In this document: positions 1-16,638 of the stretch, in pieces | Layout: each line of letters opens with the position of its first letter | How positions within the stretch are numbered: the stretch's first letter is position 1 | NCBI GenBank assembly: GCA_021432635.1 | Contig: MU270023.1 | Span: forward strand, 1,347,856-1,408,283 | Length of the DNA stretch: 60,428 bases | Reading direction: 5' to 3' | DNA from: Thozetella sp. PMI_491 | Lineage: Eukaryota; Ascomycota; Sordariomycetes; Chaetosphaeriales; Chaetosphaeriaceae | Notes under the pieces: generated by a model | Told to the model about the DNA's origin: nothing | The model's input: the letters and a program-made list of their open reading frames with translations, nothing else | Database searches by the model: none | Program-made: the position numbers and the translations under genes

Positions 1-124
1 TTATCTATTGCTATTAGTAGTGTATAAAAAGAAATCCTAACTACTTTCACTGGCTTTTTGTTTTTTTTTTTTTTTTTTTTTTTTTTCTTCAACGATACAG
101 AGTAGGAGAGCGAGAAAGTTTCCA

Positions 125-158
<34 letters not shown>

Positions 159-690
159 GCTTACTTACTTACTTGCTTACTTACTTACTTACTTGTTTTT
201 TCTTGGAATTTTTCTCGCTTATAGATTTTAAGCGAACATTCGCTCGAAATCCCCTAGTTGCCCTATATATATCCTACCCCCTTATCTATATCTATTAATA
301 GTGTATAGAAAGTAATAACTATAGCTCTTAGGGGGTTTTAGAAACAATAGAAGAGCAAGGAAGTTCCTATTGCTTGCTTCTTTTTTTCTTAGGTTTCTTT
401 CTCACTTAGGGATTTCAAGCAAACGTTTGCTTAAAATCCCCCAGTTGCCCCACATATACCCTGCCCCCTTATCTATATCCATCAGTGGTAGTATATAGAA
501 AAAGATAATAACCATAGCTTTCAGGGGGTTTTAGAACAACAGGAGAGCAAGAAAGTTCCTAATTACTTGCTTCTTTTTTTTCTTAGGTTTTTTTCTTGGG
601 GGTTTTTTTTTCTCGCTTAGGGGATTTCAAGCAAACGTTCGCTCAAAATCCCTAAGCAAGCCCCACTACCACCCCCTAGCCTACCCCAAC
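1..690. repeat. Degenerate tandem satellite, three units
   Basis: Three related units begin near 1, 281 and 469 with variants of TTATCTATATCTATTAATAG. Each carries a T-rich stretch, a purine-rich AGAGCRAGRAAGTT motif and an imperfect palindrome of about 32 bp (near 222-253, 410-443 and 621-655) built on GATTTNAAGC...GCTNRAAATCCC. Unit 1 is longer because of a poly-T run (about 60-86) and an ACTT/GCTT microsatellite (about 127-195). Differences between units are mostly transitions. No coding potential is visible. The function is unknown; it may be a satellite or the end of a larger element that lies outside the window. Confidence 0.75.
127..195. repeat. (ACTT)n microsatellite
   Basis: About seventeen copies of the tetranucleotide ACTT, interrupted by two GCTT variants. 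It sits inside the first unit of the satellite and accounts for most of that unit's extra length. A simple slippage repeat. Confidence 0.9.
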
Positions 691-744
691 AACCCCACAC
701 GCCCCCCAAATCCGAGAAATCCTAAACCAAACGCCTGCGTCTCA

Positions 745-897
745 CTCCCTAATTTAAATCTTAGATCTTTATCCTTTTATACACACACTTAAATACACTT
801 ACACTTCCACTCTAAAAGATCCGCTAGCCAGACCCACTTTTCATGTGTATTCTATTACTTACGTCATTAAAATTAATTACTCATCATACCTTTTAAC
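745..897 (-). repeat. 550-bp dispersed repeat, partial copy
   Basis: The reverse complement matches the first ~150 bp of the repeat at 2409-2962, including TTAAAAGGTATGAT near 897, a polypyrimidine CTTACACTTCCA and the CTCCCTAATTTAAATC block. It is one of the least RIP-mutated copies (CTGGCTAGCGGATC is retained). Similarity stops at about 745. Confidence 0.8.
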
Positions 898-2264
898 AAT
901 AAACTACTTTTATTAACTTAGTTTTTAAGCGCTTTTTTAAAGTGTAAAAACATATAGATATAGTATATATAACTAGGTAGTTTATAATACGTATAAAAAG
1001 TAATATATTTATTTACTTTCTACGGTTTTTTACCCTTATATTTACCCTTTATTTAAGTATATAAAGCTTAAGTATCTTCTTTTAAGTCTTAATGTTTAGC
1101 CTTATCTATAAGATTAGAGGTTATAGTATTAAAAGTATAAGCTTTAAGGTCTTTCTTAAATCTTAAGTTATAAAGCTTATTAAGCTGCTATACTTATCTC
1201 TTAAGCTATATAAAATCCACGAGATTATAACTTGATTAGGTAGGTTTATATCTCTAAAGGATAGCTTATTAGTAAGCTCTTTTACTTTATTTAAATATTC
1301 TTTTAAAGAGGTATACTTATTAAGTATAGATTTAAAAAACTCTTTTATAAGTAAATATTTTAATATAAAACCTATAGGGTTATATAGATTTTTAAGGCCT
1401 TCCTATACTATAAAAGTAGTAGTATAGTGTTTTATTTATAATAAAGGCCTATCTTTTAAATATAGTTGTATTTTAGCTAAAGCTTTATTTATCTTAGAGG
1501 AAGTAATATCCTCTCTAGATATAGCCTTAATTAAGCCTTTTTTAATTAAATAGACTTTTATATATAAGCTTTATATAATATAATTTATAATACCTTTTAG
1601 TTTAGGGATAATAGGGCTAGTTTTTTCACCTATTTTATAAGTATAAATATAAGGAAGATTGTTTAAAACCTTATACTTTTACTATATATAATAGTTTTTA
1701 AAGGTTTTATATAAGTATAAAAAGTAGGTTAGAAAAGCTTAGTAAAGGATTAAATCCTTAGGGCGATATAAATCTATAAGGTCTAGATCTAGGTCTAAAA
1801 CCGCCTGTATTTAGTAGTAGTATGATCTTAGTTTAATAGGTAAAAGCTTATTCTTATAATAATACTCTTCCTTAAGTTGTATTAAATCTATAAGTTGGCT
1901 AAAGTGTTGTATAGCTTGTAAAAGGAGAGGGTAGCTAAAATAAGTCTCTATATAGTTATAGATTTTATAGTTATAATATCTAATTAGTCGTTTTCTATTA
2001 TAATACTTATATAATAGCTTGATATACTACTTAATAAATAGATTTTAATCTAGGTATAGGTAGATATTATAGAATTCCTTGATATATAGGTTGATATTAA
2101 TAAGTTAAGGGACTGATATAATATTATTAGTTATATAAAGGTAAGGATAAGTTTAATCGTTAAAAAAAAGGCTCTTTATAACTAGAAGGGGTAAGATATT
2201 ATTGATCCTTATTAGTTTAAAGGATTTAAGAGCTATATAAAGTAGAAGACCTATAGGAACTAGT

Positions 2265-2290
2265 CTAGGGTTAGGGTTAGGGTTAGGGTA
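2265..2290 (+). repeat. Interstitial TTAGGG telomere-like tract
   Basis: One CTAGGG is followed by three perfect TTAGGG units and a trailing TA. Related AGGGTTAGGGATAGGG sequence follows about 80 bp later. TTAGGG is the telomere repeat of most filamentous ascomycetes. G-rich sequence is unexpected in this heavily RIP-mutated stretch, though TTAGGG read on this strand lacks CpA. It may be a repaired break, an old chromosome end or the terminus of an element. Confidence 0.8.
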
Positions 2291-2408
2291 TATTATAGCT
2301 TAAGGAATAGATAGAATTAGGCTTGGTTTAGTTGAGTTATACCCTTATAAAGTAAGGGTTAGGGATAGGGTTATATATATAAAGCTAGAGCTCTAGGCTT
2401 ATAACCTA

Positions 2409-2962
2409 TTAAAAGGTATGATAAGTAATTAATTTTAATAATATAAGCTGTGGAATACATATAAAAAGTAGGTCCGGCCAACGGATCCTTTAGGGTAGAA
2501 GTATAAGTATATTTAAGTATATATGTAAAAGGATAAAGATCTAAGATTTAAATCAGGGAGTAAAGCTATATATATATAGACCATATAGCCCCACTAATTA
2601 CCATATTAAGATAGCCCATCTTTTACTATATTAATATACTTGTAAAGACTAGTGTATAAAATACTTGCTTATATTTAAAACGCTTTATCTTCTTACATAT
2701 TTTATACCCTTACTAGTAGATATATATTAAAAGGGCTTAGCATATATTTTAGTTTATTTTAGGCGTTTTTATATAGTATAATTGTTTTATATAAGAGGTA
2801 GCTGTTGTATGGAATCATAGATGCTTTAAGGTGTGTGGTTGTTTTTACTCACGTAGATCTTTTATAAGTATAGGGCTTTCTTGCCTGCTTTAGAGGTATG
2901 TAGCCCGTGCGTTTTATAATATATATTTTAAGATCTATATTTAATAGTGGGTCATATATTAA
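2409..2962 (+). repeat. 550-bp dispersed repeat, full-length copy
   Basis: It runs from TTAAAAGGTATGATAAG to GGGTCATATATTAAC. Copies over the same length occur at 22530-23081 (same strand) and 34727-35285 (opposite strand), with shorter pieces at 745-897 and 19527-19772. Copies differ by transitions only over long stretches. There is no ORF, so this is a non-autonomous element or an LTR-like unit. The outer end abuts part of an LTR (2963-3129), which suggests it inserted there. Confidence 0.75.
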
Positions 2963-3129
2963 CATAGCCTTTACTCTTTAGTAATTAATCTCTACTTAAG
3001 TTTAACACTTATACTACTAGATCTTACCTTATACTAATTAATACTCTACTCGTCTCTACCCTTCCTACCTTAGGAAAGAATCCCCTATGTATTAAGAATA
3101 ACTAATCTTAAGATCTTAGTGTTATAACA
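2963..3129 (+). repeat. LTR fragment of the gypsy family at 33181-41416
   Basis: It matches the 3' ~165 bp of the 436-bp LTR, from TAGCCTTTACTCTTTAG to the terminal AGATCTTAGTGTTATAACA. The terminal CA is unmutated here, which shows the LTR's original ...TAACA end. The 5' part is missing, cut off at the 550-bp repeat. The sequence after 3130 does not match the internal region of the complete element, so it is a solo-LTR relic or a recombined end. Confidence 0.75.
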
Positions 3130-5160
3130 CTTACTTTATATATTTATTTAATAAAATAATAAAAACATATAATATTATATATAACCTATAAATTTAAGTT
3201 AATAAGGTAAGTATATATCTTTAATATAAAGAGGATATATTTAAATAGTATTATAAATAAACTATTAATAATAAAGAGAAAACTTAATAGAGATAGGGAT
3301 TAAAGATATAAAAGTTTAATTTAAAAAAGATTTAAAATAAGAGGTAGACTAAGTATAATTAGATTAAAATTATAGAGGAATAAAGTTTAAAGAAAAAAAG
3401 AAAGGAAAAATCCTTAAATCTATATAGTAAAATAATATTTATTATAATAATAAATCTATTAAGGTAATATTAAAAGTAAGGCCTTAGCCCCTAAGTAAAA
3501 AATTAAGAGTAGAGTTGATCTATATATAGAGTATACTAGTTAAATTATACTACTCTAGCTAGTAATACTTATTATAGTACTATTATATAACTATTAAACT
3601 ATTAGCTAAAGGGCTAACTATTAAGGGAGAGAGATAATTATAATAAGATATAATTATAGTTAGGGCAACTATTATATTATAGGTAAAAACTAAGGGTATT
3701 TTATACTTAATCTAATAGTATTCTAAGCTAGCTCTATAAGTAGACTAGTTAAATATATTATACTATAAAAGGATTTCCCTCCTATAAGTATTAATTAAGC
3801 AATATAATTATAATTAAGAAATATAATTACCTATTCTCTCAACTCCTTATCTATACTAATAACCCCTTCTAAGGACTTAATACTATAGTATTACACTTAA
3901 AGCCTTATAGTTTTATATAATTATTTATATATTTAAGCAGATAAGACACTTCTTATATATTCCTCTACTCTCTTAAATTAGTCTCTAGGTTAATAGATTA
4001 TAACAGTTGTAAAACTACCTCTTAATTAATAATGTTTTAATCCTAGATTATAAGCTATAGCTTCTTTAAGATACTAATAATCTCTACTTCTTTCTACTCC
4101 TCTTAGGTAAGTTTAACTAAATAAAGAGCTATCTTTTACATACTAGCCACAATACTTATATATATATAAAATAATTATTTTTATAATTATAATAAAGTCT
4201 TAATTCCTATTTAAGAACAGCCCTTTATTTTAATCACTTACTCTTAAACATCCCTAATTTTAAGTTTTAGGGCAGTAATCTCTAGAAAAGTATTTATAAG
4301 CTTCTCTTAGCTGTTTTATATCGCTTTAAAAGCAATACTAATCAGTATTTAATAATCATATAAGATCTTATAAAGCAATAAAACAAATAAACTATATAAA
4401 TCTATATTATATATTAGTATCTATCTTATATATTATCATTCTTAAGAGCTAATAAGCTTAGGAATAACTTTAATATACTCTTATTAATCACATAAAAAGA
4501 ATCTATATAATCTATAAGATCCTAATACTATAGATCCTCCACAGCTCACCAACACTATAAACAACTATTCTAACAGTAAAAGTCTTTTTAAGTCTAGTTA
4601 CTACCCTAATAATAAGGCTATTCTTATCTTAGCCTTTTATAAGGCCCTCTTTATTAATATTATACTTATTATTTAAGAAGATTTAGCTTATAATCTTATA
4701 AAGCTTAAACAACTAGTTAATATTATTAGGATATATTATATTTACTCTTACCTATTTAATATAATAACTAAGCTTTATTTTAAGGGCTAGCTAATACTTT
4801 AAGTTTATTATCTATTACTAGCTAAGAGGGTCTAAATCCCTTTAGGGAGCTAAGATCCTAACTACTAATATATATAGTTAAGCATAAATAAAAGCAAAGC
4901 TAAGAGCTTCCTAGTGTAAAATCTAGTTAACTAAGCGTTTTTTAGCCTCTAAAGATATCCTCTACTAATACTAAGCCTCCTTATTACAAGGGGAGCTCCT
5001 TAGGGAGTAATTATAAAGGGTGCTTTAAAAGACCTTTTATATATAGCTTACGCTATAAACTAGCGTGCTATTACCAACCTTAGTAATAGCCAAAAAGAGG
5101 TCCAAACTAGAGTAAGAAGCTATAAAGTAATGAAAAGATCAGGATTTAAACAAGCTACTA

Positions 5161-5679
5161 ACCGTATGGATTAAACGCGTGGTTCTTATATAGTGGTGGT
5201 TAGTATTAAGGGGGTAGGGAGGAGACGCGTCGGCGCGTTGGCATTTAAGGGGGGTTGGTTAAGGGGGGGGGGGTTAGTTGGCATGCAGGTCGACTTATTT
5301 ATATATGAGCTGAGTGCCTAGCGTTAATATAGATATAGCGGCCAAACCTAGAAACTGGCTTACCAGTAAGAGCAGGTCTGTAGACGAGTTTAAGGCAAAG
5401 ACATCGTGTTAACAGAGGTCCCTTTAAAAGAAAGTTTATTGGGCTATCTAGTACTTTAAGTTTGTTAGTGTAGGTAATCGCCTAAATGGTTGCCTAGGTA
5501 CCTAGGTCCTTTAGCCATGAAGACTTGGGACAATCCCAGCCAGAGTATGGTAGTTTATCCCATCAAGGTTGGCAGTCAAGTGATAGCCCCTTCCTAGACC
5601 ACATGTGAAGTATAATGAGTGGTACGCTACTTCCACGGGCCTCGGCTGCCATGAAATACCATGCCTGATTATTCTAAGA
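5161..5679. other. Transition zone, 3' flank of kinase gene
   Basis: This is the boundary between the AT-rich block and the gene island. It holds G-runs (near 5251-5275), ACGCGT and CGGCGCG words and no ORF I can support. It lies downstream of the minus-strand kinase gene and should include its 3' UTR and polyadenylation site, neither of which I can place. Confidence 0.5.
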
Positions 5680-8503
5680 TTACCTAGGATCCTGGCAGCA
5701 GATTCTAGGGCACTCGATAACAAAATCAGGTCCGACTTTGGTCTGATACCCGGTGCGTTTCTCCGGTGCGGGGTGGCTCGCGTATTTTTCGCTGGCTATG
5801 CAACGTCGGACCATGAGCTCAAGCTTGTAGTGGATTTGGCGACTGCATAGCCGGCCTAGATCTCTTGGGTTTGTTGGCTGGAGAACTACCATTTCATCGC
5901 GTACCATGTGCAAAAATTCGCACAGGAATTCAGGGCAAGTCTCATCTTCGAGGAGTTCGTCTACGAACTGCACATTGAAGTTAGCACTACTCTAATCCTA
6001 AGGAAGGTGTATAAGAAGGCTTGCCTGTTTCACTGTAGGTTTCACTCTCGCTTCCGACGTGTTCTTCTGGTTGGCCTTGAAAACCTCGAAAAAGGTGTTT
6101 GTCGACAGGCCGAGCCAATAGGGATCTGGAGATGATCTCTTGAGCTCAAACTCAAGCACGCGCCGCTTCCCACCGAGTAACCAGGCAGCAAACTCGAGGT
6201 ACACGCAGCCAAGCGCCCAAATGTCGAACGAGTAGCCGAACGTGCCCACGCCATCCAGATCCATCTCCGGGGCGCGGTAGTCTCGTGTCATGTTCAGCAT
6301 AGCCTGCGGCTCTGGCCGCCGCGTCAAGTTTGTCCCAAACTCGGCAAGGCCAAAGTCGGACACCCTGAGTGTGCCGCCACCAGTGGCCGCGGGGAACCAG
6401 AGGATATTCTCGGGTTTGATATCGCCGTGGTGGCCAAAGACGGATTTTGAGGAACAGTTGCTATCCTTTCCCCTAGTTAAGTGGGCTGAAGAAGACGACG
6501 AGACATATTTGTGTATTTCGAGGATGCCGCTGGCGATACCAGCGCACTGTTCCGCCATCCACCGCGCTGTTTGGAGGTCAAGGGTCGGGTTTGGGTTGAT
6601 CTGAAACCAATACTTGCGCAAGTCGCCTCCGGCCCATGGAAATACGAGGAAGAAGGTATGGCTCAGCTGATATGTCACCAGCAGGGAGATGAGATGTGGA
6701 TGTGCGTCATTGCTGAAACGCTTCAGCATTTCGACTTCCTTCTTAAACGTCTCTTTGTCCTTAGACCGCAAGCACTTGACGGCAAAACTCTTACTCGATG
6801 CCTCGTTCAAGTCGAAATTGTGGTGCTCAGGGTGTATATCAACCTTGAAGATGCGGCCTGAGCCGCCCTCGAGGTCCTTTTGCCGCTGCTTCACAAAAGG
6901 CAGGACGGTGGAGTCCGGAAACCGGTAATGGTTTACTTCTTTTCGCTCACAACCTTTGCCGAAGAAAGGCGACAGGGTGGCCCATTGCCAAAACTCAAAG
7001 TTCCAGATGTGAATCTGGGTCCACGACTTGCTAAAGCATTTCAGAGGCTCCTCCGCTCTGCGCACACGGCGGAGGTCGAAGGCCCCCGTGTCGCGGTTGC
7101 GGTAGACCTTGGCCAAGGGTAGATCGGAGTCGTTCAGGTCTTCATTGACAAACTTGACAATCGAGGACGGCCGCCCGACAAGCACGAGGATGGCGAAGAT
7201 CTTGCGGAAGCTCCGGATCTTTTGACGGGGGAGCGCCTCGCCTCCCTGCTGCTGGGAGTGGCTTCTACCAGGGAACTTGGTGCAGGCGCAAATCTTCCTG
7301 GCCAGCTCGGCTATCGCTGCCTCATCGTGTGACTCGTCGAGATGCGGCTCGAGCTCATGACGAACGGCCTCCTCAGTTACGATCCTAGCCAGCGCGCCTC
7401 GGGGTAAGAAGCGCCGTTTGCCCCGTGCGTCGTGCGGTGGCTGCATGGCCATGAAGAGCTGATCTTGTAAACTAGCCCGCGCATCTGGAATGGGAAGCGC
7501 TGGCTGCAGCCCAACTTGGCTGACCGCCTCTTGGGTGTTGTCGTACAGAATTTCATCGCCAAAGTCGGTGATTTCAGTCAGGACCCCCGCGCTAGCGTCG
7601 CCGTCGTGATTGAGAGCAGGCAGAGGTCCTTCATTGCTAAAAGCAGCCCGGCTAATTTGAAGGCTGATCTGGTCCTCCATCAGGCTGCCTTGAGATTCCG
7701 GTGTTCCGTATGGGCTCTAGAGTGGCAAGGGCGGGTTAGTTTGACCAAATATTTCTAAGACATGGCTGCAAACCCGCCGTGCAGCGCTATTTCTTTTTTC
7801 CGGCCGAGCGAACTTATAACGAAACAAGGGTATAAAGTTGAAAGAACAAGTGACTTAATCGAACAAGGACGCTGAATGTAACAAAGAAACGACAATGGCG
7901 ACATGGGAGGGCCGATTGGAGTATGCCATTGATGCAAATGTTAAATGGGCACGGGAGCGACTCAGGGGAAATGGAGCCGCTGCTTTGCGGGGTTTGGTTC
8001 TAGGAGTTGTTGGGCTAGAAATCGTGACTTACCTCTAGATCTCGTTCATTGATGTTAAGTGGCCTCTTGTTGCCGAGGAGCCCCGCTAGCAGCCCATGAC
8101 TTTCTCCAAACACCCCTCCGTAGTGGGCTAGCCTTCGAGGTTCAGCCCTGTCGACAACTTCCCGGGCTTCCCTTTTGAACTCCGAGCGATCCGGGCTATC
8201 ATCGATGCTAGGAGTACGGTCATCCAGGCTCGGCGGCTGTGAGCTTTCAGTTCTTGCGGGCCGCGCGCTAAAGCGTGGCATGTCGCGTCCTGAAGCATTC
8301 AGCTCGACTGTGAAGTCGCTGCAGCGCGGGCTCTCCAAATACTGCGAAAGCTCCTCGTAGTAAAGGCTATCCTGTGCCCAGGACTCCGTCTGCCGGGTAT
8401 TATAAAGAGGGGGAAAGGCCGCGTCTTGCAGCTTAGGACCGGCTGCAGCCGTGGCAACGCCGTCAATGTCGCCATCCTGCGCAGCTCGTGGCGAGTTCTC
8501 CAT
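5680..8503 (-). CDS. HGD-type Ser/Thr protein kinase with long N-terminal extension
   Basis: Proposed exons are 8503-8033, 7716-6025 and 5967-5680, giving 816 residues in one frame. The 316-bp first intron has a GTAAGT donor, an ACTAACC branch point and a CTAG acceptor. The 57-bp second intron is GC-AG (CAG|GCAAGC, branch TGCTAAC, acceptor GTGCAG) and restores an otherwise broken frame. The kinase domain covers about residues 441-690: glycine loop GGSGRIFKV, lysine in FAVK, catalytic loop HHGDIKPENIL (HGD instead of HRD), DFG, and YRAPE. The N-terminal ~440 residues are acidic, proline-rich, then helical. A segment FLPRGALARIVTEEAVRHEL matches the equivalent region of the kinase-HET protein encoded divergently at 10843, so the two share architecture. 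The substrate is unknown; such kinases occur beside HET and NLR genes. The least certain point is whether 8033-8503 belongs to this gene; the kinase alone could start at the ATG at 7680 (647 residues). Confidence 0.7.
5968..6024 (-). other. GC-AG intron in kinase gene
   Basis: Read on the minus strand, the donor is AAACAG|GCAAGC, the branch point TGCTAAC and the acceptor AATGTGCAG. Without it the kinase reading frame ends eight codons later; with it the frame continues for 95 residues. GC donors are a known minor class and usually have a strong AG|GCAAG context, as here. Confidence 0.65.
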
Positions 8504-10842: not shown

Positions 10843-13800
10843 ATGTCAAGCGATTCGGATGATGAGACAAGCTTGAGCAGCCAGCTCACGGAAAGGTTCG
10901 AAAGAAGCGTTTTTGACAAGCACGACTTTATGCCCGATGGCGTCGTCGAGGAACTTGTCATGCGAGAGGCCGTGGTGAGAGAGCTGGGCCTGGAAGCAAC
11001 TGACAATCATGGAGGGGTGTCGCCCCTGACAGACGAACAGCGGGACTTGGTGGCCTTCATCCTCGATCGCTCCAGGAAGATCTTCATCATTACATGTTTA
11101 GCAGGATTCCGACGCAAAAAGTTGCGTCAGGCAATAAGTCGATTCAAAGAGAAAGACATGGACGACCTTCGACTACCGATTGGACAACCCGATCTATCCT
11201 CTTTGCCTAAGCCCTGGAATGCATTCTTCACATACGCCTTCTCCACGCATCAGTGGCGTTTTCTGGTTCCCGTGTTTCGCCACAATGATCAGAAAACCCT
11301 ACACATGGACGACATTCTACCCTTTATTTGGATGAGTGAGGTCGAGAAATCGGGTGCCTTCGGCACTGTCCGCGAGGTCACTGTCCACGAAAGGCACCAG
11401 CTCCAATCCCTAACTACAGTAAGCTTCTGTCGTTAAGAGCCCTGTAATGCTTCCTATTTTGTTTCGACCGCTGCTAAGCGAACGTGCTAGTTTGACGGGA
11501 AGCGGGCCAACGTCGCTATTAAAGGGATCAGGCAGACGGAGGAATCTGCTGTGGTGGCTCTGAGGGAGGAGTGGGAGGCCGAGGTCCATGCACACCGGGA
11601 AATCAGCCAGTTGCACCACCCCAACATCATTGAGTTCATTGCTGCCTTCACCCGGGGCACGGAGCACTACTTGATGTTCCGCTGGGCTGACGGTGGCACG
11701 CTGCGTGATCTCTGGAAGAACAACTCCCAGTTCAAACTCAGCGCTGATCTGGTCCGAGATGTCGTCTTGCAGCTAAGAGGGCTCGCCGATGCCCTTGTGG
11801 AGCTGCACGAATACCGTGGCGGAGCCTGGCGTCATGGCGACCTCAAGCCGGAAAACATCTTGCGCGTGCTTACTAAAGCCAATAGTAAATCTAGCTTGGA
11901 CGTGGGAATCCTCAAGATATCCGACATGGGATTGGCCAAACATCATACGGCCATGACAGCGGTTCGGCACGCAACTACGCAAAAGAAAACGACCTTCCGC
12001 TACGAGCCTCCGGAGGTCTCCATCCGGCCGCTGGGCAGCCGGTCGCGGCGCTACGATATCTGGTCATTCGGTTGCTTCACCCTCGAGTTCCTCGTTTGGC
12101 TTCTTTTCGGCAACGAAGGGCTGACGGCTTTTAACAAGAGCATTGTGGGTGACCTTGGCGAGCAGACACCGTATTATACCGTGAAGATCAATGACCAGGG
12201 GTACAAATCCGCTCAAGTCCATCCCGAGGTGATCGAAACCATGGACGCCATCGCCAAGGACCAGGAAGGCAAATCCGACACCGCGATCCAGGAGCTATTA
12301 CATATCGTCAGAGATATGCTCCTGATTGTGGATCTAGATCCCGCAGCCGAGGAGATCACTTCCGAGATCGAGGTGCCTGGGATCATCGTAACACCTGCGG
12401 ATCCGACCGCGCCGCCGACCATTGCCATGGGAGACTTGGGGTTCCAAGGACCGCGGGCCACGGCCAAGGAGCTCCGAAACGCGTTGGATAATATTATCAG
12501 TGAGGGAAATAAGAACGAACGCTACTGGTTTACAGGTAAATCTCGTGATCACATCCGGCGGCTCAAGCCCGAGAAAGAGAGCCTAGCTATTCCCACACAA
12601 AACGTGAGTTCCCTCCGTGTCTCCGTTGAGGTCCTTCGTCCTTCTAGCTACATCAATGCCCAGAATACTAATGCCATTAATCAACGATTCAGAGCGTACG
12701 TATTCTGTCTATGAATTCCCAATTTTGCTATCCTTATAACCAGGTTCCCTGGTTCTCTAAACTTTGATTGGTCAACAGGAAGTAAGTAATGCTCTCGACC
12801 CGATTCTAATGCCGACGCCTAGGTGGCCCAACTTGGGAACTCACTAACCTTTGCGAATTAGTACGTAAGTGATAATACGACTCTTGTGAGAGTGGAGGTT
12901 GTAAATACGAAGCTGACGCGGCTTATTTGATATAATCAGCGTGTAAGTTCAATACATCTCCGCGCTCCTCTGTGGACCATCTACGGTTGTCACGGCTGAT
13001 TCTAACCCCAAATCCAGGTTGTAAGTGGCCCCTCCAAGAATAAATCCATGAATATTAGATAAGATATTTGGATGTATACTTAATTTCACGTGATAGCTGG
13101 TATGTCGACTGCCTTCTAGAGATCAAACGCGTTTAACTGACGACAATGTTTAACACGGATAGGGTTTGGTACGTATGGCTTTGAAACAGCTCTTTGCGGC
13201 TCTCAAAAGCTTATGCACTATACAGCTCGATGATAAATGGGTGTTTTCAGTCGACAACAAGTTCGCATCTGATCTTCTAGACTCCGCTAAATCAACGGCT
13301 CCCGTTCCAGCTCCCATGCCAGCCACCCTATGCAAAATCTGCCAGGGTCTCGACTTCACAAGCATGCAATTCAAACTAGTGGACAAGTGGGCAGATCTGG
13401 AAGAGCAAGGAAAGAAGGAGGGGCACAAAGCATGTGGTTTCTGCAAAATGCGGTGGAACTTGTGCAAAGATCTTGACAGGAGGCAATATCCAGAGCTCAT
13501 CTTCCGCCGCGAAAAGTCCATGCTCAGGCTCAACGATGGTTACCCTCCAGTACTCTCTATCCGCCGCCACCTCGGTAGGTTCGAAAGAAGAAACTTTTAC
13601 GACAGTCTAATCATTGAGAGAATACAGACTCCTCCATCTCGAATCCAGAACGCATTCAAGTTGGACTACCCAGCCTACCAGCTGTAGGAAGCGAGATGCA
13701 CTTCCACATTATGCGGAAATGGCTCCAACACTGTGATGACAACCATAAGTTATGCCAGACCCCGCAAAACACGATCTTGCCGAAGAGACTGCTAGACCTG

Positions 13801-15265
13801 GGACCTGAGTCTTCTTCCAATATTCTTTTGAGTGAGACGAAGGGGCTTTCCCCCTCGCTCCCGTACATCGCTCTGTCCCACCGCTGGGGCGAGGGCAAGC
13901 ATTTCTGTACTCTGACGTCTAACGTAGCGAGCTATCAGCGTGGCATCCCTTTTGAGGACTTGCCCGCGACATTCCGGCACGCAGTCGTTGTTGCACGGCA
14001 GCTCGGTATCCGTTACCTCTGGATCGATTCGATCTGTATTGTCCAGGGGCCAGGCGGCGACTTTTCCACCGAGGCAACCAGCATGGAGACTGTCTTCAAT
14101 TCAGCCATTTGTGTGCTGGCCGCCAGCAGCAGCCAGGGTCAGTGGGAGGGATTCCTTAACCGACGGCCGATCGATAGCATTACTCGTACTACCGTTGCCT
14201 TTACCGGCGAGGACGGAAAGCCTGCTGTTTATGTCTCTCCATTTTTTGACGACTTCGACGGCCACGTCTTGCATGGCCCTTTGAGCCAGCGCGGGTGGGT
14301 GCTCCAAGAACGAGCACTAGCCCGTCGTACCATCTATTTTACGGAAACCCAGACTTACTGGGAGTGTGGAGAAGGCGTACGATGCGAAACTCTCACCAAG
14401 ATGGACAAGTAAGCGTGTTTCTCGTTGTAACTTGACCACCCCGATACTTTTGATTGTCATAGAAACGTGAAGCTAAGCCATGATCACGACATACAGCCAG
14501 CTCGCTTCTTTTCTTGGAGACCCCAACTTCCCGTCGAAGCTTTCTAAGGATACAACAACTCGAGGAGAAAAGATACTGAACTACCAGAAGCTCTTTCGGC
14601 AGTATTCGCAGCGTGGTCTAACACGCCCTTCTGACCGCCCTATAGCAATCGCAGGTCTCGAGAAGCGCATACTACAGAACCTGCGCTGCCCAGGAGGTTA
14701 TGGCGTCTTTGATGACGGCAAAAGCCATTTGCAGCATACACTCCTCTGGCGACGAGACGCCGAGGTCCAGTCCCTCGTGCGTATCGACGAACTGAAACAT
14801 TCCATCCCGAGCTGGTCGTGGATGGCGTACTCTGGGGCCATCGACTATCTTGACGGCCCCGCCGGTCTGATGAAGTGGATCACAGATGACATACGCAGTC
14901 CTTGGAACATAAGCAATGGCGAGACCTGGCATACCAGTGACGGCCGTGAAAAGTCATTCCTGACCGCTAAAGTACGCGATTTCACGACTGTAATCGATGG
15001 CACCACTGACTCGGTGGTCGTGTACGACATCCCGGGCACCGTTCAGATGAACGCTGGACCAGTCAAATGCGTATTACTAGGTCGAGAAAACAGCTCTATG
15101 AAGTCACTGGGCGAGACAAGGCACTATGTGATGATCGTGGCTCGGAAGGATGTCTCGTCATCTGCAGAGAAACAAGACCTGGTTTACAAGAGAGTCGGGG
15201 TGGGATCGATGCCGGGCAAGTATATCGATTTGGAGACTCCCACCTCTTTGGCTACAATTCGGTAG
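10843..15265 (+). CDS. Protein kinase-HET domain fusion protein with microexon tract
   Basis: Proposed exons: 10843-11418, 11491-12603, 12693-12695, 12779-12781, 12862-12864, 12940-12942, 13018-13020, 13097-13099, 13163-13168, 13226-13574, 13628-14408, 14497-15265; 1203 residues with no frame break. Residues ~165-420 are a kinase domain: SGAFGTV glycine loop, VAIK lysine (split from the loop by intron 1), WRHGDLKPENIL catalytic loop, DMG in place of DFG, PPE in place of APE. A ~150-residue linker follows. After the microexons come DDKWVFSVDN, a CxxC/CxxC segment (CKIC, CGFC), then the HET domain at about 765-910 (YIALSHRWGEG, LPATFRHAV, GIRYLWIDSICI). The tail contains LGDPNFP and GLEKRI blocks usual in HET proteins. 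HET proteins trigger cell death in heterokaryon incompatibility; here a kinase-like module would act as sensor or regulator (inference). The DMG and PPE changes suggest atypical or low catalytic activity. Separate kinase and HET genes remain possible, with HET starting at the ATG at 13175. Confidence 0.7.
12604..13225 (+). other. Tandem microexon tract: eight introns, seven 3-6 nt exons
   Basis: Between the kinase exon (ends 12603) and the HET exon (starts 13226) there are eight consecutive intron-like units: 12604-12692, 12696-12778, 12782-12861, 12865-12939, 12943-13017, 13021-13096, 13100-13162 and 13169-13225 (89, 83, 80, 75, 75, 76, 63 and 57 bp). Donors are GTGAGT, GTACGT, GTAAGT (four times), GTATGT and GTACGT. 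All acceptors are CAG or TAG. Branch-like motifs include ACTAACC, GCTGACG and TTCTAACC. The sequences left between acceptor and next donor are AGC, GAA, TAC, CGT, GTT, CTG and GGTTTG. They add eight codons (S E Y R V L G L) and keep frame from the kinase to the HET part. The introns are not similar to one another, so they are not recent copies of one introner. Confidence 0.6.
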
Positions 15266-15838
15266 ACCAAGATGCAATTGTACAATGAAATTAGAAGTGA
15301 TAGTGGAAGGAATGGGTGTAGGTACGGAGCGGTTGTACGGTTCATGCTATTTCAGGCTTGATGCCTGACCGAGCTACCTGGGTAGTCTATCCTTGAGTAT
15401 TGTTTTCTGTTTTAGCAACTAGCAACCATAATATGAGATGTCTTGGTGATTACTCTGTCGTTGAAAACACTAATGTTTATGCTGGCTCCTCTGAGGAGGT
15501 CTTGGCCCGCAGACTTCAATTGGAAAATTTGTGTAGAGGCGGGCATGTGCGCTTTCCGTGATGCGATGTATGCTATTTAATTTATCTTGCTGACTTACCT
15601 GTGTGGGGAAATCGGGATGTGGGTAGCCGTCCTACCCAGACTGGAGATGAATATAGGGACGGTTTATCGCGATATTGCTTCGTCGCCTAGACTTTCCAGT
15701 TTTACCGGAACATCCGTTTGCCCTTTGCAACTACGTCGTATTCGTTTTGTATCCGATAGCTACATTCTCCGCATTTAAACCCAGAATCGAGTCCATGACG
15801 TAGGATCTTTCATCTTCTGCTTCTGAATCGGCGTTAGC
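15266..15838. other. Intergenic region
   Basis: Downstream of the kinase-HET gene and upstream of the G1 peptidase. No supportable ORF, RNA gene or repeat. A CGCATTTAAACC stretch about 65 bp before the peptidase ATG could be a TATA-like element. Confidence 0.4.
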
Positions 15839-16638
15839 ATGAAGCTTCTAAATATCTTTGTGGGCTTGCCGCCCATCAGTGTTGTCTTCGGAGTGTCTTT
15901 CCCGCATCGAAGGCTTGGCAGCCATGGGGAGCCCAACCCGATATTTTATGAGCGCGGGGCCGACTGGAAACAACTATCCTCTGGCGTCTCGGTGGGGAAT
16001 GATGTCACATACAACTCACTATGGGCCGGTGCTGTGATATCGGGCAAAGACTTCGTGTCTGTCACTGGCAATGTGGTTATTGGACCAGCGGCTTCGCCGC
16101 CGGGTGCACAGGCTGGGACTACCTATGCGTCTACAACTTGGGTGGGTATTGATGGCACCGGATGTGCGACACAAGCTCTTCTCCAGACAGGCGTTGATTC
16201 ATATGTTACCAACGGTGTTACACGCTACGAGGGCTGGTGGGAATGGTATCCGGGACCGTCCACGCCCTTCAACAATTCCCCCATTAACTGGGCGACGAGA
16301 TACGTATCAGTGTCATGGCCACCAGCGCCACGTCGGGCTACGCGACACTGGAGAACCTTACTACGAACAAGGTAGCCAACCACACCATCATAAATGCGGC
16401 TCGTCTCTGCTTCAGTAGCGCAGAATGGGTGGTGGAAGATTTTTATTCTAACGGCCGGCCAAGCAACTTCATGGCCAACTTCACGACAGTCAAGTTCACG
16501 GAGGCCTCGGCCACAACCAAAGATGGAAAGAAGCACGATACCAGCGGGTCGGAGATCTTCGGCGTCAAGCATGGGAGCAAGGTTTACACCGACTGTATGG
16601 TACCGAGCTCATCTGTCGTTACCTGTACATACACTTAA
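15839..16638 (+). pseudogene. G1-family glutamic peptidase (eqolisin), one frameshift
   Basis: A secreted acid peptidase of the scytalidoglutamic/aspergilloglutamic type. The N-terminus has a short hydrophobic signal-like segment and a propeptide. The mature-type part shows NSLWAGAV, TTWVGIDG, the catalytic Gln in ALLQTGVD, YEGWWEWYPG, and, after the break, the catalytic Glu in SSAEWVVEDF and a C-terminal CTYT. The first frame runs to 16372, but homology leaves it at about 16288-16292 (CTGGGCG) and continues in the +1 frame through 16638. One missing base in the G-run explains this. No splice sites fit. Both catalytic residues are present, so the gene is either recently inactivated or carries a homopolymer sequencing error. 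Confidence 0.8.

Follow-up and report, generated by a model that had tools for sequence, protein, structure and literature searches.

Codon-sized microexons in fungi are known from the nank (NACHT-ANK) genes of Tuber melanosporum, which, in the available parts of the reports, are described as containing tens of such exons and as undergoing alternative splicing (PMC3689799, PMC9815663, PMC4986451, PMC10197012). The microexon array described here, from Thozetella sp. PMI_491, resembles the truffle genes, as far as these accounts go, in having many 3-bp exons per gene, in belonging to a filamentous ascomycete and in the class of gene concerned, that of nonself recognition and cell death. It differs from them in being located in kinase-HET rather than NACHT-ANK genes, in coding for an interdomain hinge, while the nank array encodes a C-terminal recognition domain, and in spelling out a motif which is shared with unbroken relatives; furthermore, alternative splicing is reported for nank, whereas the Thozetella microexons are predicted from the DNA sequence. 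The view of the first-pass annotation, that no tandem array was known in a fungus, was therefore wrong, given what is reported for the truffle genes.

Other systems are less close. The Xlr2 gene of Trichoderma virens contains a single microexon of 20 nt, not a multiple of three and reported as a switch, which was missed by the JGI gene model, just as the window array was missed by the deposited model of its gene (PMC11121469, as far as available). P450 genes of Phanerochaete chrysosporium feature exons down to 6 bp, spread over the genes and 2-10 codons long (PMC1184071); these are basidiomycete enzymes, and a tandem chain of single codons is not mentioned in the accessible part of that paper. 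Stwintrons and recursive splice sites, in the accounts available, share with the present array the occurrence of successive splicing reactions in one short tract, but differ in that the Thozetella introns are each complete, with 3 or 6 nt between neighbours. The schistosome micro-exon genes, which belong to another kingdom and another protein class, also typically contain series of small symmetric exons, larger than the single codons found here.

The array is located in a window, i.e. the whole stretch of DNA analyzed, of 60,428 nucleotides of contig MU270023.1, within a genome of 72.3 Mb; all positions given below are those of the window. The gene, on the forward strand, starts with exon 1 (10843-11418), coding for the N-terminal region, followed by exon 2 (11491-12603), which contains the protein kinase domain and ends with ...IPTQN at the first array donor. 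Downstream of the array, the HET-side module begins with an exon (13226-13574) starting with LDDKWVFSVDNKFA..., and is completed by the HET-domain exon (13688-14408) and by the final coding exon with the stop (14497-15265). Once exons and microexons are joined, the frame is open for 1183 aa, with no internal stop. Pfam analysis of this model finds a Pkinase match at residues 196-394 and a HET match at 747-895, the succession of domains in one chain that defines the fungal kinase-HET protein family; kinase and HET are the only families matched, NACHT and ankyrin being absent from the Pfam matches.

The gene lies within an island flanked by AT-rich blocks (1-6000 and 18001-51000, GC 17-31% in 3-kb steps), which may reflect past repeat-induced mutation. 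About 3 kb upstream of the kinase-HET gene, on the opposite strand (5998-7716), lies another gene matching a protein kinase, and a peptidase A4 gene (Pfam PF01828) is found at 15827-16638 (forward strand). The two halves of the latter profile match fall in overlapping frames, because of either a frame break or an unrecognized intron.

The array itself spans positions 12604 to 13225. As described in the first-pass annotation, eight donor-acceptor units of 57-89 nt follow one another there, with gaps of 3 nt in six instances and of 6 nt in one; all these figures were confirmed in the sequence, as was the use of GTAAGT donors by four of the eight introns (3 to 6). Intron 1 (12604-12692, 89 nt, GTGAGT...CAG, branch-type motif CTAAT) is followed by the microexon AGC, coding for Ser (12693-12695), and intron 2 (12696-12778, 83 nt, GTACGT...CAG, with TTGAT as its only branch-type motif) by GAA (12779-12781), whose Glu is the acidic residue of a [DEN]Y motif. 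Intron 3 (12782-12861, 80 nt, GTAAGT...TAG, CTAAC) precedes TAC (12862-12864), coding for the conserved Tyr, the majority residue at that site in the consensus of 63 relatives. Next come intron 4 (12865-12939, 75 nt, GTAAGT...CAG, CTGAC) and CGT for Arg (12940-12942), intron 5 (12943-13017, 75 nt, GTAAGT...CAG, CTAAC) and GTT for Val (13018-13020), and intron 6 (13021-13096, 76 nt, GTAAGT...TAG, TTAAT) and CTG for Leu (13097-13099). Intron 7 (13100-13162, 63 nt, GTATGT...TAG, CTGAC) leads to GGTTTG (13163-13168), coding for Gly-Leu, the only 6-nt microexon, and intron 8 (13169-13225, 57 nt, GTACGT...CAG) closes the array. A YTRAY branch-type motif is thus present in introns 1 to 7, while none is found in intron 8; the latter, if retained, would be in frame and free of stops. 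Together the microexons amount to 24 nt and, as claimed, keep the frame from kinase to HET, reading N-SEYRVLGL-LDDKW.

Recursive splicing with zero-length exons requires that the AG of an acceptor abut the GT of a donor. This was never observed: acceptor and donor are separated by 3 or 6 nt in all 22 cases known from the window and its paralogs. Similarly, in the window array no splice or branch site is split by another intron, as would be the case in stwintrons, and the eight introns are complete. Several tandem 3-nt exons within one gene, a feature of the truffle nank-type class, are present in the sequence.

Chance can be excluded as the source of the array. A scan for chains was run with rules drawn up after the array had been seen (donor GT[ACG]NG[TC], acceptor [ACT]AG, exon length 3 or 6 nt, intron length 45-110 nt) on both strands of 45 fetched loci and the window, for a total of 316,593 bases. 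Eight loci repeating stretches of the arrays were left out of this sample, in which some overlaps persist (L011 and L015 with L043; L018 with L046). It is not a random draw from the genome, since, window aside, it mostly includes kinase, HET and NACHT loci, its random part being limited to 50 kb, from five stretches at the head of a list of 80 drawn randomly. Single units (69 found, 67.8 expected from first-order Markov simulation) and chains of two (2 found, 1.9 expected) occur at the simulated rate, and no chain of three was seen, against 0.05 expected. Chains of at least four were found four times, always in the kinase-HET linkers of four paralogs, as opposed to none in 12.66 Mb of simulated sequence, in agreement with the initial claim that the array exceeds chance; outside of these arrays no chain of at least three occurs in the 316,593 bases. 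When a single spacing was allowed at a time, from 1 up to 15 nt, chains longer than two were obtained at 3 nt only. No chain of at least three was found in two kinase matches lacking a HET match (C18 and C19), nor in the NACHT genes at 2 of their 87 matched places, where a single chain of two derives from repeated CCTCGG. One scan of viral contigs did not find foreign DNA of the kinase-HET family.

The paralogs were identified among the best five matches to the HET exon in the genome, namely the window gene (C9) and C8, C11, C1 and C27. All four that also have a kinase match, C9, C8, C27 and C1, contain an array, with 7, 7, 4 and 4 microexons, respectively, 22 in total, 21 of 3 nt and one of 6 nt. 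The encoded residues, with hyphens at the introns, are N-S-E-Y-R-V-L-GL-LDDKW in C9, F-I-N-Y-K-H-P-K-LDNEW in C8, E-Y-N-V-P-QLQNLNDDW in C27 and E-Y-N-A-L-QHRKLLDNDW in C1. A Tyr microexon and five intron positions (before the Tyr and after it and each of the next three residues) are common to all four, and every one of the 22 microexons is in phase 0 and frame-neutral. A CTRAY motif occurs 6-45 nt upstream of the acceptor in 16 of the 26 array introns (shuffle mean 4.7), the other 10 being devoid of it. The first microexon of C8 (ATT), initially placed by eye, was later recovered by the scan; an eighth one (TTC) was dropped as a probable over-extension. In C1, the first donor may be either GTCCGT or GTGAGT, both leaving the microexons unchanged. 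The remaining match, C11 (L043, 5570-7612), is limited to the HET side, with neither a kinase match nor a readable upstream array; it has a stop inside its HET match and is probably a truncated copy.

Introner-like elements of one family are alike in sequence. No such likeness was found among the 26 array introns, whose 325 pairs have a mean score of 11.8, compared to 12.0 in shuffled sequences, and a highest score of 19, compared to a shuffle maximum of 24; recent tandem duplication and introner spread were both ruled out on account of this lack of mutual similarity.

The array of the window is thus real at the sequence level, and its microexons are very probably spliced into mRNA, because the residues they encode resemble those of relatives in which the same stretch is written unbroken. 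This resemblance and the three paralogs built alike support the initial proposal of codon-sized exons joining kinase to HET in frame. In C8, INYKHPK-LDNEW can be compared to INYTHPE-LDDKW of Lasiosphaeria miniovina (P0057), with identity at five of the seven positions of the motif. Random intron triplets give five identities with P 5e-6, and the C8 score was reached in none of 200,000 trials, a generous estimate, as P0057 was chosen once the linkers within its clade and in further relatives had been inspected; in the tree members of this clade other than C8 and P0057 themselves, the INY-type motif is not present in the annotated proteins. SEYR of C9 is similar to NEYR or DEYR, and [DNS]EY[RQ] is found in seven relatives (P0006, P0007, P0008, P0030, P0040, P0021 and P0029) at a distance from the following [IL]D equal to that of C9. 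Against random intron triplets, and with partners picked, here as in all these tests, after the linkers had been viewed, the P values for SEYR are 0.0008 (P0040), 0.0024 (P0006) and 0.0056 (P0021), and that for YNVP of C27 versus YTLP is 0.0009; YNAL of C1 did no better than chance with the relative tried (P 0.08). A Diaporthe protein (P0013, KYVLVQ) was discarded as a match, since its letters could be translated intron. A profile built on 86 relatives favours inclusion weakly (135.3 versus 132.9 bits), 10 of 128 microexon subsets scoring slightly above full inclusion, and was rejected as proof because it is too weak.

A further indication comes from the set of 119 relatives (P0006-P0124), 15 of which derive from metagenome sources only. 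A [DEN]Y located 11-16 residues before the anchor is present in 14 of these 15, but in 25 of the 76 anchor-bearing annotated models (Fisher P 1.5e-5); 28 further annotated models, lacking the anchor, fall outside the 76. Nine of the 15, P0006 included, break off at the conserved intron that comes next, which is expected of raw reading frames. The excess is only suggestive of inclusion, since the two sets do not have the same clade composition. Altogether, we put the probability that the window array is both real and spliced in at about 0.85.

The conserved hinge motif of the kinase-HET protein would then be cut by eight short introns into the pieces S, E, Y, R, V, L and GL, all in phase 0 and normally retained in the mRNA. 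Each intron would be recognized across itself, by intron definition, and taken out singly, as simultaneous recognition of an acceptor and the next donor, 3 nt apart, is hardly feasible; every such step would restore a normal exon end ahead of the next donor. Skipping of any microexon would leave the frame intact and alter the length of the hinge. The predicted structure of the relative P0006 (63-row alignment, mean pLDDT 83, pTM 0.61) bears on this point: residues 340-390 have pLDDT below 50 and probably form a flexible linker, the block 391-400 has a mean of 88, and the motif occupies residues 382-390. Gain or loss of one residue is likely tolerated in the hinge, given the location of the motif at the end of the low-confidence linker, before the confident region.

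The array genes occupy three separate positions in a 124-row tree: C9, C8, and C1 with C27, the placement of this last, long-branched pair differing between two trees. Forcing them into one clade was rejected, at a cost of 185 log units (AU p 2e-69), in a quick search on 30 chosen rows of the 124 and 531 columns, linker left out, the four-gene group having been named once the first tree was known. Since the array genes do not form one clade, either an old array was later lost or the arrays arose several times, and the shared intron positions favour the former. The likeliest history, in our view fairly probable, is that the array predates the split of these gene clades and was afterwards eliminated as a whole from some lines, the pattern that loss by way of a spliced copy would leave; it is perhaps unannotated in other relatives. 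A real array with several origins in Thozetella or its near kin, through repeated intron gain between adjoining hinge-motif codons in distinct gene lineages, is the less likely course. It would fit the motif being in one piece, at the protein level, in P0006 and P0040, near C9, and in P0057, near C8, and the raw-frame-like ends of P0006 and eight other metagenome-only proteins. It is harder to reconcile with the five intron positions common to all four arrays around the Tyr, and the dissimilar introns give no sign of recent spread. In addition, the motif is missing from 51 of the 76 anchor-bearing annotated relatives, as expected if it were hidden in unannotated microexons, a deficit which clade make-up could also explain.

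A different question is whether the array serves diversity, as has been proposed for truffle nank genes, with regulated combinatorial skipping producing hinge variants at the junction of the kinase with the death effector. This is compatible with the microexons being normally included, and has in its favour their uniform phase and frame neutrality, the precedent of truffle nank, as far as reported, and the vicinity of the site to the probably flexible linker of the P0006 model. The conserved residues, the Tyr above all, argue instead for constant inclusion, and the array encodes a hinge, not a recognition repeat; we regard such a role as rather unlikely. A broader version would make the single-codon chain an ancient feature of fungal kinase-HET genes, one that predates the split of their main clades and persists unannotated in many other ascomycetes, its frame-neutral skipping tuning the hinge that connects kinase and death effector; it is tentative and also less likely than not.

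P0005 (GQ53DRAFT_680702), the model deposited for the gene in the window, lacks the whole array, joining ...IPTQNV to TPMPATL by a jump which, judged by eye, starts close to the first array donor and lands at approximately position 13305. It also lacks the W.F.VDN.FA motif. A protein search yielded 325 matches, of which the 120 listed, P0005 included, have kinase and HET Pfam domains; DN.FA is present in 86 of these 120, P0005 being among the misses. Further searches returned 3 and 13 proteins, mostly not new. The junction in P0005 is what would be seen if 12604-13225, or a wider stretch, were removed whole as a single intron with decoy sites never used inside it, a very improbable reading, rejected on the evidence of paralogs and relatives, as it would turn into coincidences both the arrays of four paralogs, when simulation gave no chain of at least four, and the INYKHPK/INYTHPE match, and is taken from a model which misses the common DN.FA as well. 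Annotated models of related species differ over the linker stretch (P0031/P0038 and P0027/P0042), which is what missed exons would produce. In P0073, P0045 and P0049, from Xylaria and Fusarium, the residues before the conserved W motif could, by eye, be translated intron ends, and hint at missed microexons.

Chains of single-codon exons with short introns between them are a rarely seen gene layout. With codon-sized microexons already known in fungi from Tuber, what is new is the gene family, the location in the linker and the sharing by diverged paralogs; among the literature matches listed, which cover subscription papers thinly, tandem single-codon arrays in kinase-HET genes are not reported.

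With up to seven codon-sized exons in a row in four diverged paralogs, these arrays provide a natural test of the minimum exon size for the spliceosome, and of strictly stepwise, intron-defined splicing. A second family after the truffle NACHT-ANK genes would tie codon-sized exons to genes of the nonself-recognition type and, if the array is ancestral, many gene models of fungal cell-death proteins may err at a conserved motif.
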